A DNA stretch of 64,000 nucleotides from Prochlorococcus marinus (GTDB lineage Bacteria; Cyanobacteriota; Cyanobacteriia; PCC-6307; Cyanobiaceae), in NCBI RefSeq assembly GCF_001180305.1, contig NZ_CVSX01000041.1, positions 62,001-126,000 on the forward strand. The letters run 5' to 3'. Below, in pieces: positions 30,840 to 62,306 of the stretch (position 1 is its first letter; every line of letters starts with the position of its first letter). The notes under the pieces were generated by a model that was not told where the DNA came from, searched no databases, and saw nothing but the letters and a program-made list of their open reading frames with translations. The position numbers were made by a program, and so were the translations under genes.

Positions 30840-32873
30840 ATGGTTCATTCTATACACCCAAGAACTATTCAAGAGGTTAAGGAAAAAGCAGATATTGTTG
30901 ACGTTATATCTGAACATATTGTTCTTAAGAAGAAAGGCAAGGAATTCGTTGGGATTTGTCCTTTTCATGATGATACTAAGCCATCTATGACAGTATCACC
31001 AACTAAACAATTCTATTATTGCTTTTCTTGTGGCGCTGGTGGTAATTCTATTAAATTTTTAATGGAATTTACTCGTGCAAATTTTTCAGATGTTGTTCTT
31101 TCTCTTGCAAAAAAGAATAATATTAATGTTGAAAATCTTGAGGGTCCCCAAGTAGAGGCTTATAAAAAACAATTATCTAGAAAGGAAGAGCTTTATAAAA
31201 TTTTAAGAGTCACTAAAAATTGGTTTAAGTCTCAATTAAATAATTCTCTAGGTGTTGAAGCTATGAAATATTTGACATCGAAGAGAAACTTGAATAATAA
31301 AATTATTGATGACTTTGAATTAGGTTTTGCACCAAATTCATGGAATGATTTATTTAACTATCTATCCAAGGTAGAAAAATTCCCTATTAATCAAATATTG
31401 GCTTCAGGTCTTGCAATTTCTAAAGATAATTCTGATAAGATTTATGATCGTTTTAGAAATAGATTAATCGTTCCAATACATGACATGCAGGGTCGTGTAG
31501 TTGCCTTTGGTGGAAGATCTCTTGATGGACAGGAACCCAAATATCTTAATTCTCCTGAATCAGAGATATTTGAAAAAGGGAAAATGTTGTTTGCATTTGA
31601 GAAAGCATCTAGTTATATAAGAAAAAGGGATAAAGCTATTATTGTTGAAGGATATTTTGATGTAATTTCTCTTCATTCAAAAGGTATTGCTAACTCTGTA
31701 GCTTCTCTCGGTACCGCATTAAATAAGTATCAAATTTCCCAACTATGTAGATGTACAGATAATAAAAATATAATCTTGAATTTTGATTCTGATAATGCGG
31801 GTATATTAGCTACAAAAAGAGTAATAAAAGAAGTCGAAAGCTTATCTTTACATGATCAAATTAATCTTAAGATACTTCAACTTAATGAGTTTAAAGATCC
31901 TGACGAATTTTTGAATAGTCATACCCCTGAAGATTATTTTAATTTAATTGATAATTCATCCTTTTGGATTGATTGGGAGATTGATCAGATCTTTAAAGAT
32001 AAAGATTTAAGTAAGTCTGAAAACTTCCAGAGCGTTATTTCTTCATTGGTAAAATTGTTGAGCAAATTACCTCAATCATCAACAAGAACCCATTACTTAC
32101 AAAAAGTTTCCGAAAGATTGAGTAAGGGACAAGCAAGATTAGCGATACAGTTTGAACAAGATTTAAGAAATCAAGTAAAGGGATTTCGTTGGCATGGTAG
32201 ATCAAAAAAATTTGAACAACCCAATGAAATTTCTCGACGTGAGAAAAATGAATCGGAAATAATTTTTTATTATCTACATTGTCCTGAGCTTCGGCTTTTT
32301 ATTCGCGATGAATTTCTTAAAAGAGAAATTAATGGTTTCAATACTAACTATATTCAAAATTTGTGGGAAGCTATCTCAAAAATCGAACAAAATAATTTTG
32401 GTTTAAATTATTTAAATCAATTAAAACAATCAAATAATCAAATTCTTCAAAAAGAGTTATCTGCCATTAACCTCATTTCACTTTTACCTGACTACTTAGC
32501 TCTTAATAATCCTGATTCATCAAATAAAGTTAATAGTTTTGTTAACCCAAATGAATTGTTTTTAACATTGCTAAGTAATCCTAAAGATAATTTACTTGGA
32601 TCTTTATCACTTCTTGAGAAATATAATTCGTTAAAAAGATGTAGACACTTGATCGAATCTTGGGGATCTCAAAGATTAAAAACTTTAGAAAATTGTATAT
32701 CAATCTTGATTGATAATCCCTCTTCTGGTTTATCAGAAACTAATAAAGAGATCGATGATCTTTTTAAGGATTTAAACTCAGATGCTATAAAATTTCAGGA
32801 ATTATATTATTTAGAAAGACAACACATGAATTTTTTAGATAAACAACGCTGTGGTAATTTCATTTCTACTTAA
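30840..32873 (+). CDS. dnaG: DNA primase DnaG
   Basis: Makes RNA primers for replication (677 residues, slightly long as in cyanobacteria). CHC2 zinc finger CPFHDDTKPSM...CFSCG near residues 40-65; catalytic core with FGGRSLDG; Toprim motifs IIVEGYFDVISLHSKG near 272 and NFDSDNAG near 318. The C-terminal helicase-binding region is divergent. Converges with the HExxH gene, 16 bases apart. Confidence 0.96.
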   Translation: MVHSIHPRTIQEVKEKADIVDVISEHIVLKKKGKEFVGICPFHDDTKPSMTVSPTKQFYYCFSCGAGGNSIKFLMEFTRANFSDVVLSLAKKNNINVENLEGPQVEAYKKQLSRKEELYKILRVTKNWFKSQLNNSLGVEAMKYLTSKRNLNNKIIDDFELGFAPNSWNDLFNYLSKVEKFPINQILASGLAISKDNSDKIYDRFRNRLIVPIHDMQGRVVAFGGRSLDGQEPKYLNSPESEIFEKGKMLFAFEKASSYIRKRDKAIIVEGYFDVISLHSKGIANSVASLGTALNKYQISQLCRCTDNKNIILNFDSDNAGILATKRVIKEVESLSLHDQINLKILQLNEFKDPDEFLNSHTPEDYFNLIDNSSFWIDWEIDQIFKDKDLSKSENFQSVISSLVKLLSKLPQSSTRTHYLQKVSERLSKGQARLAIQFEQDLRNQVKGFRWHGRSKKFEQPNEISRREKNESEIIFYYLHCPELRLFIRDEFLKREINGFNTNYIQNLWEAISKIEQNNFGLNYLNQLKQSNNQILQKELSAINLISLLPDYLALNNPDSSNKVNSFVNPNELFLTLLSNPKDNLLGSLSLLEKYNSLKRCRHLIESWGSQRLKTLENCISILIDNPSSGLSETNKEIDDLFKDLNSDAIKFQELYYLERQHMNFLDKQRCGNFIST

Positions 32874-32889: not shown

Positions 32890-33357
32890 TTATAAGCAGT
32901 ATTTTTTAATCATGTTTTTTACCTTTTTTGGTTTGTCTTCAAGGATATAAGCTTCTACTTCTTTTGCATAACTTCCTGAAAACTTAGAAGTAGAGAATTC
33001 TAATGCTCTCTTCTTGCTTGGATTTAATTTATTTTCTAAATCTTTTATATCGCCTACTGTTGTATTATTGTTGCATTTTTGTATGGCATGAGTCGCTTCA
33101 TGTCTTAATGCTTTTCTTATTGCTAATTCTGTTTTGAAGTTATCTTTATTTGGGTTTCGTTTTATATTTCTATAATTTGTTTTTCTTTTTGCATTTTCAG
33201 TACATATTATTATTTTATTTTCTTCAAAATTATGAAGTCCTTTTATTTCTTTATTTATTAAACATTCAATTTTATTTTCTTCAACTGTGTAATTTATTTT
33301 CATTAACAAGTTTAGAATCTCTTTATCTAATTTGCTTAAAAATATAATAAATTCCAT
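32890..33357 (-). CDS. Putative minimal HExxH metallopeptidase, downstream of umuC
   Basis: A 155-residue, Lys-rich soluble protein that I do not recognise with certainty. It carries a zinc-peptidase motif, RHEATHAIQ, with His86, Glu87 and His90, and a likely third ligand in KEVEAYILED (Glu133 or Glu135). An upstream IIICTENAKRK and the spacing recall ATP23/M76-type peptidases (VCxN, HExxHA, EIRA), but this resemblance is weak and by eye. It is the third minus-strand gene after umuD and umuC, separated from the umuC stop only by a poly-A run, so SOS co-expression is likely. Confidence 0.6.
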   Translation of the reverse strand: MEFIIFLSKLDKEILNLLMKINYTVEENKIECLINKEIKGLHNFEENKIIICTENAKRKTNYRNIKRNPNKDNFKTELAIRKALRHEATHAIQKCNNNTTVGDIKDLENKLNPSKKRALEFSTSKFSGSYAKEVEAYILEDKPKKVKNMIKKYCL

Positions 33358-33375
33358 TTTTTTTTTTTTTTTTTT
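33357..33375. repeat. 19-base homopolymer (poly-A on the coding strand)
   Basis: Nineteen T residues on the plus strand. On the minus strand the run begins in the umuC TAA stop and ends at the A of the next ATG, so the whole umuC-to-HExxH spacer is adenine. Such runs slip during replication and transcription; here length changes would not alter a reading frame but could alter translation initiation or mRNA ends. It is also a place where assembly errors are common. Confidence 0.9.
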
Positions 33376-34660
33376 ACTTTACTATAATTGGGATCTGTTC
33401 TATATCAGTTGTAGATGAGCGACTTAAGAAATTCTTATTAATTGTCCAACTTTTTGGGTTTTTTGTAATAGCCCATGTAATTGCATTGTTATTAAATCTT
33501 CTATTTAATGAATCAATAGTTCTCATGAGACTTGCTGATTTTTTTAGTTCTTTCTGAGATTTGTAATTTATGATTGACTGCTGTAAATATTCGCTATTAT
33601 TTAAACCCTGCATTAAAACTCCAGCCTTTGAAAATTTATATTCGGGATTGTAAATTTCTTTAGATAATTCAACTACTATTTTTAAAATACTATTTGTGTC
33701 ATCTGTTGCATTTGTAAGTTTTCTATGAGCACTTCTTTGATAATTTTGACTTGAATATTTACTGGTTCTGGCAAATACTCTAATATCAGATGATTGCAAA
33801 TTCAGACTTCTCATTTTTTCAGACGCTTTTATTGCGTGAGTCGCCAGTGCTTGAGTTAAGTCTTCTAATTTGGTGACAGGAGTACCGAAACTCCTGCTTA
33901 CTTGGATTTCTTTTTTTGATTTTTTACCTTCTTCTATGGGTAGACATTTATGACCTTTAAGTTCTAACTGCAATCTTTTCCCTACAATGCCTAGTTTCTT
34001 AATGATTTCATTTTCTTCCATATCTCGTAATTCTCTCGCATTTTTAATACCTTTACTTTGTAACCAATTAGAGGTTTGTTTCCCGACTCCCCAGATCTTA
34101 TCTACACTAATTTTTTTCAAATAATTATTCTCATTGCTGGTTTTAGCTAAATCAAATATTCCAGCCGAATAATCAATGTTTTTAGCTAATTTATTCGCAA
34201 TTTTTGCTCTTACTTTATTTTCTCCTATTCCTACTGTTATTGTAATCCCTAGATTCTGATATATTAATGATCTTACGTTTCTTGCCCAAGGATAGAGATT
34301 TTTATCATTAGGTCTAGAAATAGATATAAATGCTTCATCTATAGAATAAATCTCTATTTGTTCGCAGCAGTTTTTCAGTAAATTCATTAGTCTTCTACTC
34401 ATATCCCCGTAAAGCGAGTAGTTTGAGCTTAAAACTGCTACATCTAATTTATTTAATCTTTCTTTGACCTTAAAATATGGGGTCCCCATTTTAATTTTTA
34501 AAGCACGTGCTTCAGGACTTCTTGCAATGATACATCCGTCATTATTAGATAAAATTACTACTGGTTTATTTCTTAATTGAGGATTAATATTTTGTTCGCA
34601 TGACGCGTAAAAGTTATTAGCATCTATAAGAGCTATCGCATCAATACTTGAAATTTTCAT
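33374..34660 (-). CDS. umuC: Y-family DNA polymerase V subunit UmuC
   Basis: Error-prone translesion polymerase (428 residues, full length). The catalytic N-terminus is intact: ALIDANNFYASCEQ near residue 11, YGDMSRRLM, and YSIDEAFIS near 104 with the metal-binding Asp and Glu. GVGKQTSNWLQSKGI is the helix-hairpin-helix; the little-finger domain follows. The ATG overlaps the umuD stop (ATGA), so the subunits are coupled. Expected to act with cleaved UmuD during UV-damage response. Confidence 0.96.
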   Translation of the reverse strand: MKISSIDAIALIDANNFYASCEQNINPQLRNKPVVILSNNDGCIIARSPEARALKIKMGTPYFKVKERLNKLDVAVLSSNYSLYGDMSRRLMNLLKNCCEQIEIYSIDEAFISISRPNDKNLYPWARNVRSLIYQNLGITITVGIGENKVRAKIANKLAKNIDYSAGIFDLAKTSNENNYLKKISVDKIWGVGKQTSNWLQSKGIKNARELRDMEENEIIKKLGIVGKRLQLELKGHKCLPIEEGKKSKKEIQVSRSFGTPVTKLEDLTQALATHAIKASEKMRSLNLQSSDIRVFARTSKYSSQNYQRSAHRKLTNATDDTNSILKIVVELSKEIYNPEYKFSKAGVLMQGLNNSEYLQQSIINYKSQKELKKSASLMRTIDSLNRRFNNNAITWAITKNPKSWTINKNFLSRSSTTDIEQIPIIVK

Positions 34661-35073
34661 AAATAGCTATGTATTGAATAAATGACAACCCCCCATATCT
34701 GTACATCAATATGGTCTTTAAATCTAAAATCAGGATAATTTTGATTTTCTGCTTTTAAATATAATTCATTATTTTTTGTAGATAATCTTTTTATTGTAAA
34801 TTCCCCGTCTATCATGGCAATGATAATATTCCCTGGCCTGGCTGTTAAACTCTTGTCTACTATTATTAAATCTTTATCTTTAATTCCTGCATTTATCATT
34901 GAGTCACCTTTAACTCTAAGAAAAAAAGTGCTAAACGGATTAGATATTAAATGTTCATTTAAATCAATATTTTCTTCTGTATGGTCATCTGCAGGAGAAG
35001 GAAATCCTGCTGATACTGAATCTGCCAATAAGGGGATTCCAAAAATTTTAGTAGTTGAATCGAAAGAATCCAA
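34657..35073 (-). CDS. umuD: UmuD, LexA-like self-cleaving SOS protein
   Basis: RecA-stimulated autoprotease (138 residues) whose cleaved form is the polymerase V partner. Cleavage site Ala22-Gly23 (SAGFPSPA), nucleophile Ser58 in KGDSMINAG and base Lys95 in FTIKRL are all present. TTG start at 35073. Lacks the LexA DNA-binding domain, which separates it from lexA. A LexA-like box lies 14-27 bases upstream. Confidence 0.95.
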   Translation of the reverse strand: MDSFDSTTKIFGIPLLADSVSAGFPSPADDHTEENIDLNEHLISNPFSTFFLRVKGDSMINAGIKDKDLIIVDKSLTARPGNIIIAMIDGEFTIKRLSTKNNELYLKAENQNYPDFRFKDHIDVQIWGVVIYSIHSYL

Positions 35074-35086
35074 AGATTAAATTAAT

Positions 35087-35100
35087 AGTATATATGTACT
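35087..35100 (-). promoter_or_regulatory. LexA-like SOS box upstream of umuD
   Basis: AGTATATATGTACT (AGTACATATATACT on the transcribed strand) fits the cyanobacterial LexA pattern RGTAC-N3-DGTWCB with one mismatch. It overlaps the expected promoter region of umuD, the classic SOS gene, so repression by LexA is likely. No other clear copy was noticed in the window. Confidence 0.65.
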
Positions 35101-60416: not shown

Positions 60417-62306
60417 ATGTTATTAAGTGAGTTAAGTCATCCGAATGAACTACATGGCTTAACAGTTTCACAATTAGAGGAAATTGCTTGTCAAATTAGA
60501 GAAAGACATCTTCAAGTTGTATCTACAAGTGGTGGACATCTTGGACCTGGATTAGGGGTAGTTGAATTGACATTGGCTCTATATCAAACGCTTGATCTAG
60601 ATATCGATAAGGTTGTTTGGGATGTCGGTCATCAAGGTTATCCTCATAAATTAATTACAGGGCGTTTCAGTGAATTTGATTCTCTTAGGCAACAAAATGG
60701 AGTAGCTGGATATCTTAAAAGAAGTGAAAGTAAATTTGACCATTTTGGTGCAGGTCATGCAAGTACTTCTATATCTGCTGCTTTGGGAATGGCAATAGCG
60801 AGAGATAGAAAAGGTGAAAAATATAAATGTGTAGCTGTTATTGGAGATGGAGCGTTAACTGGAGGAATGGCTTTAGAAGCTATAAATCATGCAGGACACC
60901 TTCCAAATACTCCACTAGTCGTAATACTAAACGATAATGATATGTCTATATCTCCACCAGTTGGAGCTTTATCATCATATTTAAATAAGGTGAGACTAAG
61001 TCCACCATTACAGTTTTTATCAGATAGCGTTCAAGAAAGTGTAAAAAATATACCTTTAATTGGTAAAGATATTCCTGAAGAATTAAAAAATATTAAAGGT
61101 AGTGTGAGACGATTGGCTGTACCAAAAGTTGGAGCTGTCTTTGAAGAACTTGGATTTACATATATGGGACCAATTGATGGTCATGATATTGAAAATTTAA
61201 TTAATACATTTAATGCTGCCCATAGACTAAAAAAACCTGTGCTCGTACATGTTGTTACAACAAAAGGGAAAGGCTACCCCTATGCCGAGGCTGATCAAGT
61301 TGGATACCATGCACAATCTGCTTTTGATCTTACAACTGGGAAATCTATTCCATCTAAAAAACCTAAACCTGTTAGTTACAGTAAAATCTTTGGTCAGACA
61401 TTATTGAAAATTTGTGAACAGGATAGTAAAGTTATTGGTATAACAGCAGCTATGGCTACTGGTACTGGATTAGACATACTTCAAAAAAATATACCTGATC
61501 AATATGTTGATGTAGGGATAGCTGAGCAACATGCTGTTACTCTTGCAGCAGGAATGTCGTGTGATGGTCTTAAACCTGTTGTCGCTATCTACAGTACTTT
61601 CCTTCAAAGAGCTTTCGATCAATTAATTCATGACGTAGGGATTCAAAATCTACCTGTATCGTTTGTGCTAGACAGAGCTGGGATAGTTGGGGCTGACGGT
61701 CCTACTCATCAAGGTCAGTACGATATCAGTTATATGAGATCGATACCTAATTTTGTCTTAATGGCTCCAAAAGATGAGTCTGAATTACAGCGAATGTTAA
61801 TAACATCAATTAACCATAAAGGACCTACAGCTCTAAGGATACCCAGAGGTTCTGGATTAGGTGTAGCGGTTATGGACGAGGGTTGGGAACCCTTAAAAAT
61901 AGGAGAGGGTGAAGTATTAGAGGAGGGAAATGATATTTTAATTATTGCTTATGGGTCTATGGTAGCTTCAGCTATTCAAACGGCAGAAATCCTAAAAAGT
62001 ATGAACATTAATGCGTGTATTGTAAATGCAAGGTTTGTAAAACCTCTTGATGAAAATCTTATTATTTCTCTGGCAAGCAGGATTCAAAAAGTAGTAACTA
62101 TGGAAGAAGGAACCTTAATAGGTGGATTTGGTTCTGCTATCGTTGAATTATTTAACGATAATGAAGTAAATATTCCTGTATACAGAATCGGTATACCTGA
62201 TGTTTTAGTAGATCATGCTTCACCTGATCAGAGTAAAGAAAAATTAGGTCTTATGCCTGATCAGATGGCAGATAAAATAATTAAGAAATTTAAGTTAAAT
62301 AATTAA
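60417..62306 (+). CDS. dxs: 1-deoxy-D-xylulose-5-phosphate synthase Dxs
   Basis: First enzyme of the MEP isoprenoid pathway (629 residues). Start ATG at 60417 ([15 protein letters not shown]), the usual N-terminus; the frame is open further upstream but not conserved. Thiamine-binding [19 protein letters not shown] with NDNDMSI near residue 150, [15 protein letters not shown] near 365 and [15 protein letters not shown] near 420. Feeds carotenoid and chlorophyll synthesis together with ispE. Confidence 0.97.

Follow-up and report, generated by a model that had tools for sequence, protein, structure and literature searches.

The 64,000-nucleotide (nt) stretch of Prochlorococcus marinus DNA analysed here (positions 62,001 to 126,000 of contig NZ_CVSX01000041.1, hereafter the window) carries behind umuD and umuC a gene for a 155-residue HExxH protein, HX. 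It is a real gene under purifying selection, and its predicted fold indicates that the product is probably a small metallopeptidase of the zincin/gluzincin type. Judging from gene spacing and a conserved upstream box, HX is most likely co-transcribed with LexA-controlled umuDC in close relatives. New here are relatives of HX, of the PHROG 16003 type, encoded immediately after the gp45 sliding clamp gene of cyanophages. The reading that we favour, tentatively and somewhat short of calling it probable, is that HX is a cytosolic zincin, encoded third in a umuD-umuC-HX operon that LexA represses, and cuts proteins at stalled or repaired replication sites. The features concerned are the following.

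32890-33357, minus strand: HX, predicted zincin metallopeptidase, 155-residue HExxH protein (open reading frame (ORF), conservation, predicted fold, ratio of nonsynonymous to synonymous substitution rates (dN/dS))
33374-34660, minus strand: umuC, DNA polymerase V (Pol V) subunit, 428 residues (ORF, Pfam, NCBIfam)
34657-35073, minus strand: umuD (Peptidase_S24), 138 residues, TTG start (ORF, Pfam, NCBIfam)
33358-33373, minus strand: A-rich 16-nt gap from umuC stop to HX start, without terminator-like site (sequence, terminator scan)
33088-33102, minus strand: HEATH codons, HX residues 86-90, with H86 and H90 as presumed zinc ligands and E87 as presumed catalytic residue (invariance)
32959-32961, minus strand: codon of HX E133, likeliest candidate for the third zinc ligand, in an E-x-x-A motif (conservation)
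35087-35100, strand not assigned: LexA-type box, AGTACATATATACT read on the operon strand (conservation ahead of umuD in all 91 loci)
30840-32873, plus strand: dnaG, convergent neighbour lying 16 nt past the HX stop, given as context outside the operon (ORF)

Gene layout and LexA control

The initial annotation of this DNA described a LexA-like box, then umuD and umuC with an ATGA overlap and a 155-residue ORF, all on the minus strand and with no terminator between them, and this description holds throughout. The overlap is made of the umuD stop and the umuC start codons, coordinates and Pfam assignments agree (UmuC, IMS, 7.4e-39; UmuD, Peptidase_S24, 1.3e-34), and no terminator-like site was found in the umuC-HX interval on the operon strand. 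The HEATH motif at residues 86-90 and the later glutamates of KEVEAY (E133 and E135) are also where they had been read. In NCBIfam, UmuD passes the cut-off of PRK10276, and the best match of UmuC, PRK03609, reaches 326.5 bits, below the cut-off of 431.

The LexA-type box AGTATATATGTACT lies ahead of umuD. The pattern AGTACNNNNGTACT, allowing at most one mismatch, returns 26 sites in the genome versus 24 for a control pattern and is thus not enriched; a single site of this type therefore means little, and the evidence lies in the conservation of the box. With at most two mismatches it is present upstream of umuD in all 91 loci (86 of them with at most one), and the control upstream regions contain it in 0/86 (rlmH), 1/92 (dnaG), 0/80 (rsmA), 1/76 (DMT transporter) and 0/78 (ruvA) cases. 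It precedes umuC in 5 of 118 loci and is found directly upstream of HX in none of 139. For 68 of the 91 umuD loci, the aligned start codon is a TTG that stands 12-14 nt away from the box. The end of the box and the next two bases form TACTAT (35085-35090), a possible -10 element; since the box overlaps this element and the TTG start is close by, the umuD mRNA may be almost leaderless. In close relatives, the gap between umuC and HX measures 5-16 nt in 97 of 98 loci, the outlier (-103) probably being a frame break.

In their available text, Li et al. predict, for several Prochlorococcus strains, LexA sites at umuCD (PMC3091678), and Kolowrat et al. report that umuC (PMM0937) remains elevated longer under ultraviolet (UV) light (PMC2921402). 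In Synechococcus CC9311, the available text describes genes downstream of umuDC as raised by mitomycin C (PMC3744912); they may or may not include an HX relative. A literature search for PMM0936, the presumed MED4 tag of HX, returned no mention and no report of induction by damage, and a search for the neighbouring tags PMM0935, PMM0937 and PMM0938 returned umuC only. The earlier proposal of a DNA-damage-induced metallopeptidase is therefore sustained in part: the conserved HExxH, the zincin-like predicted fold and the LexA-boxed umuDC argue for it, but the papers searched gave no sign of damage induction for HX itself.

Conservation and predicted fold

A search of 300 genomes from this bacterial family gave relatives of HX (E ≤ 0.001) in 101, and named assemblies, almost exclusively of Prochlorococcus, supplied 74 loci; some named loci and other genomes are the same strains, and counts are of loci, not of independent species. 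In nine of nine close-strain pairs the dN/dS of HX is 0.12-0.25, with 0.10-0.17 for umuC and 0.16-0.26 for umuD in the same pairs. The host alignment was reduced from 140 to 50 rows by a redundancy cut at 85% identity. Fragments (L071, L074), one locus too remote for the first pass (L105), a broken frame (L110) and a lipoprotein-like paralogue (L107) were dropped from it, and L133 was dropped from alignment A1 only. Among 48 aligned host proteins, down to 27% identity, C52, T53, H86, E87, H90, C95, A136, E140 and C154 never vary and E135 nearly never changes. H86, E87 and H90, the presumed catalytic and zinc-binding positions, are unchanged in all 47 distinct phage sequences as well. No further invariant or near-invariant histidine is found in the 48 host proteins. 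The candidate third ligand, E133, is a glutamate in 48/49 host and 46/47 phage sequences and an aspartate in the remaining ones; E135 and E140 are conserved as well.

AlphaFold2 run on the host alignment yields a model with a predicted local distance difference test (pLDDT) of 90.5 and a predicted template modelling score (pTM) of 0.87, in which HExxH lies close to the end of a long helix (residues 72-95) and E133 on a later helix (residues 130-139). A second structural aligner, used besides Foldseek, places IrrE/PprI on top (Z 7.2, 87 residues, 3.2 Å; IrrE/PprI rows at 7.2, 7.1 and 6.5), lower matches being anthrax lethal factor (6.6), ArdC (5.8) and minigluzincins (about 4-4.5), with the aligner's own warning that Z below 8 may reflect just a common arrangement. 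The zincin reading is kept despite this, because most of the higher-scoring rows are what we take to be HExxH metalloproteins. Many zincin chains stand among these matches, though at Z 7.2 or lower, and Foldseek reports no match in the Protein Data Bank (PDB) at E ≤ 0.001. What the initial annotation had named as refuting its proposal, variable zinc ligands and no predicted zincin fold, did not overturn it. A structure search of BFVD returns uncharacterised proteins as best matches, the named ones coming from cyanophages, e.g., Syn5 Gp14.

Family placement

The HX protein alone returned nothing from the sequences of solved structures, and the HX profile returned from them dynactin and myosin rows only, at E 0.28 and worse. 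NCBIfam gave nothing with HX, and PADLOC gave no match to anti-phage defence. Comparison of profiles by hhalign assigns 42.6% and 37.1% to M78 (over 60 columns), 2.3-3.8% to SprT and 1.9% to M48. With one side reversed the M78 values fall to 0.5% and 0.1%; with both profiles reversed, a set-up that retains the resemblance and is no null, the value is 23.9%. The ranking of M78 over SprT over M48 is soft, because the M78 alignment is the most diverse (Neff 5.2 versus 2.5 and 3.6 for the other two families), which favours it, and because zincin families score 8-77% among themselves (M78-M48 46%, SprT-M48 77%); both SprT alignments used are thin (Neff 1.0 and 2.5). Pfam M78 (PF06114) has no match to the window protein at E ≤ 10, although HMMER filters drop most weak matches, it has none in the genome itself at E ≤ 0.001, and it is not among the matches listed for the 48 members of the HX alignment (25 of 31 families).

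The resemblance to ATP23/M76 peptidases that the initial annotation had seen by eye does not amount to membership, and is a weak lead at most: HX scores 13.8 bits (E 0.052) against a PF09768 cut-off of 25.2, the match covering the HExxH half of the protein. Four of the 48 alignment members match this family at E ≤ 1 (best 0.0078). A PF09768 search of the genome itself gave none at E ≤ 10, and among 14 controls 3 had weak matches and 0 exceeded the cut-off. The M76/ATP23 family is mitochondrial, and we presume its likeness to HX to consist of a similar HExxHxxDxC spacing and a C-x-N upstream. Kinship with SprT, also raised at first, was rejected in its turn. HX has no further conserved histidine, which we take to be the third zinc ligand of SprT/Spartan proteins, its hhalign values for this family are those given above, and PF10263 is not listed for it at E ≤ 10. 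Five of the 48 alignment members match PF10263 at E ≤ 1 (best 0.011), and the same genome encodes a separate SprT-like gene (contig C39, 41478-41819; 86.4 bits, above cut-off). By the tests run, HX would thus represent a zincin-like family outside M76, M78 and SprT.

Homologues in cyanophages

A first viral scan with the single HX protein returned no relative; cyanophage homologues came up with tblastn and with a profile scan. The viral set comprises 82 loci, namely two isolates and 80 IMG/VR loci that are the best 80 of at least 298 confirmed relatives and not a random sample. Host and phage HX are one family by hhalign (100%, E 4e-57). The carriers are T4-like cyanophages, in which the HX homologue starts at most 30 nt from where the match to the gp45 sliding clamp ends in 81/82 loci, its start codon overlapping the upstream stop codon by one base in 80/82. 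The genes gp44, gp62 and regA follow where the contig extends far enough, and in SynMITS9220M01 HX lies one gene after the clamp. Neither umuC nor umuD has a match in any of the 82 viral stretches (tblastn, E ≤ 1e-3).

The phage proteins correspond to PHROG 16003, a group of cyanophage proteins with no assigned function (e.g., Synechococcus phage P60 gp06, which matches it at 6.5e-68) that is the same family as HX by profile. It matches the window HX at E 1.8e-9 over residues 11-154 of 155, and all 48 members of the HX alignment at E ≤ 1 (best 7.6e-17). One such homologue (OR032571.1, L158, 5001-5411) is annotated as serine hydroxymethyltransferase, and its sequence matches PHROG 16003 at 1.8e-15.

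Host and phage HX form separate clades (support 100/99) in a tree of 69 rows, which used 21 of the 47 distinct viral rows, omitted four similar host rows and included three rows read later. Two host-bin copies (L109, L111) and two remote ones (L106, L108) fall on the phage side. Loci L109-L111 are HX copies on short contigs of genomes G080 and G251, the frame of L110 being broken; L109 and L111, being on the phage side of the tree, may stem from phage contigs that ended up in host bins.

A gene for a pyrimidine-dimer glycosylase (Pyr_excise) lies within 3 kb downstream of phage HX in 61 of the 71 loci with at least 1 kb of downstream sequence, and is immediately next in 52. Pfam Pyr_excise was checked on three copies (best 1.3e-15), and genes of this kind lie at 6423-6932 in L165, 6420-6926 in L179 and 5429-5935 in L159. 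The neighbour is not specific to HX, because cyanophages commonly carry this glycosylase in any case (405 phage records at E ≤ 1e-10). The S-SRM01 record labels the Pyr_excise gene as hypothetical. In MT408532.1 (L241, 3389-3988) a gene annotated as DenV matches the Pfam 2OG-Fe(II) oxygenase family weakly (E 0.00019, under cut-off) and the PHROG 'DNA endonuclease V' (8e-33), and its DenV label looks doubtful.

Linkage to umuDC in host genomes

HX adjoins umuC in 73 of 75 loci, consisting of the 74 named records and the locus of the window, the other two being partial copies. By coordinates, in a table covering 100 of 105 HX places (five weak partial matches were excluded), HX adjoins umuC in 80, is clearly apart in 6 and has no umuC place listed in 14. 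Reading of the latter loci showed linkage in G027, G055, G261 and G011, umuC pieces in odd orientation in G041, and HX at contig ends in G116 and G184; in the seven others (G014, G028, G079 twice, G080, G100 and G251) neither the stretch read nor the genome showed a umuC. The gene order seen in the initial annotation thus recurs in most of these loci, but rlmH and dnaG also stay in place, so that adjacency by itself is no proof of a functional link, and HX sits elsewhere in some genera.

Where it sits elsewhere, HX comes after rplT (L20) in G031 and G100, after secG in G026, G043 and G079, and close to mqo in G053, the neighbours having been named by Pfam with four of them checked; loci L118 and L254, and L112-L114, display the positions after rplT or secG. 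Since HX is elsewhere in other genera and umuC is far commoner (265 of 300 genomes versus 101), the umuD-umuC-HX arrangement is lineage-specific. With midpoint rooting of the tree, the host copies that branch off first are unlinked ones. Remote paralogues (L107, 3497-4267; L153-L157) retain HExxHxxQxC and, further on, an E-A-Y-like motif and a cysteine near the C-terminus; several have, by eye, signal-peptide or lipobox-like N-termini, with up to five matches per genome. C95 and C154 of HX may be an old disulfide pair.

Possible function and competing explanations

In the reading that we favour, HX would be a small cytosolic peptidase whose zinc is bound by H86, H90 and probably E133, with E87 as the catalytic base. 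DNA damage would raise it together with Pol V through the LexA-repressed operon, its target would be a protein stuck on DNA or a replication or translesion protein needing clearance, and T4-like cyanophages would carry the homologue behind the sliding clamp gene for the same purpose. The link rests on two clades of one peptidase-like family, one behind LexA-run Pol V genes and the other behind the clamp, a distribution that points to protein cutting at damaged or stalled forks. The phage context supports indirectly a role of HX at forks or in DNA-protein crosslinks, which is unproven. A narrower version, in which HX is a counterpart of Spartan from outside SprT, delivered with a translesion polymerase or with a clamp and a pyrimidine-dimer glycosylase, and clearing UV-damaged DNA of trapped proteins, seems unlikely.

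Several observations weigh against a role at forks. The best structural Z of about 7 is middling, and to it is added the Foldseek result given above. In other genera the gap between umuC and HX is 34-328 nt (27 of 29 loci), which leaves room for a separate HX promoter, and the scan of 13 unlinked HX copies for a LexA box gave no positive. In their available text, Kolowrat et al. describe most repair genes as only slightly changed by UV (PMC2921402) and Osburne et al. do not regard SOS use in MED4 as established (PMC2955971). The viral loci were not drawn at random, and other phage copies have other settings: that of P60 directly precedes the RNA polymerase gene, that of S-CBP42 (a weak match) lies two genes before it, and that of ACG-2014f stands among hypothetical genes. 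The exported look of remote paralogues, as judged by eye, suggests that the links of the wider family are not confined to DNA.

The most serious objection is that HX, although a genuine zincin, is a passenger in a syntenic block, having landed behind umuC once in the Prochlorococcus lineage and been kept there by synteny while its job, such as general protein turnover or processing, lies outside the SOS response; we consider this rather unlikely. In the loci read, rlmH, umuDC and dnaG stay grouped with or without HX, and the HX-umuC adjacency may be plain synteny because rlmH and dnaG hold their place too. Four of the five genomes read with HX elsewhere (G031, G073, G053, G043) keep umuDC between rlmH and dnaG, the fifth (G026) having umuC on a short contig. 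The positions after rplT, after secG or near mqo, the early branching of unlinked copies and the exported-looking paralogues all suit a passenger. Such an origin fits less well with the narrowing of the gap to 5-16 nt in close relatives, where umuDC always has its LexA box, and with a separate phage clade in a replication and UV-repair neighbourhood.

Alternatively, HX might act like IrrE/ImmA (M78) in the damage-linked cleavage of a specific repressor or signalling protein, the phage copies targeting host regulators. We hold this to be decidedly unlikely, although IrrE/PprI rows are its top structural matches, M78 is the best of three zincin profiles, the E-x-x-A motif resembles M78 rows by eye, the P60 copy sits directly before the phage RNA polymerase gene and DUF955 zincins occur in SOS operons according to the available text of PMC3765255. 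The lack of an M78 match for HX at E ≤ 10, or in its own genome at E ≤ 0.001, argues against it, as do the greater diversity of the M78 alignment, the equally high scores of zincin families among themselves, and immediate neighbours (umuC and dnaG) that include no repressor. Direct control of Pol V or the clamp, with translesion synthesis brought to an end by degradation of UmuC, UmuD' or the sliding clamp, would explain why HX adjoins umuDC in hosts and gp45 in phages. It is nevertheless improbable, given that Pol V is not a common partner in the viral stretches, which lack umuC and umuD, and that many hosts have umuC without HX. Cleavage of UmuD by HX, which had been suggested at the outset, is least needed, because UmuD matches Peptidase_S24 and looks self-cleaving, presumably retaining its own Ser/Lys dyad and Ala-Gly cleavage site. 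A reading of HX as an HExxH-like protein that is catalytically dead or structural is hardly credible, with H86, E87 and H90 unvarying in the 48 host and 47 distinct phage sequences.

Relation to known systems

HX is a variant of an already published theme of SOS-linked zincins, drawn from another family: DUF955/M78 proteins are known with ImuB-C and DinB, as far as the available text reports (PMC3765255). Literature searches found no zincin family other than DUF955/M78 with umuDC or with gp45, nothing on a cyanophage metalloprotease together with a sliding clamp, and, among the papers listed, none joining umuC and a metalloprotease in a cyanophage or Prochlorococcus context. The nearest relatives, PHROG 16003, are phage-borne, behind gp45 or near the RNA polymerase gene, whereas HX lies beside umuDC. 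IrrE/PprI and ImmA (Peptidase M78, formerly DUF955) share with HX the HExxH followed by E-x-x-A, as seen by eye; unlike them, HX has four conserved cysteines and a cysteine-bearing C-terminal helix. The DNA-protein crosslink proteases SprT, Spartan and Wss1 are likewise small zincins tied to replication and DNA damage, as the available text has it (PMC4559962), and HX lacks their profile match and their extra histidine.

Prochlorococcus is the ocean's most abundant photosynthetic organism. Its genome is small and, according to the available text of Osburne et al., holds few repair polymerases (PMC2955971). If true, a peptidase retained behind the Pol V genes would add an unexpected third player to translesion repair. 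A second, separate context comes from the phage homologue behind the clamp, which makes the question testable with two small proteins, and HX provides a function hypothesis for PHROG 16003, so far without any. Together, HX and its phage context hint at a proteolytic step in the response to damaged DNA.

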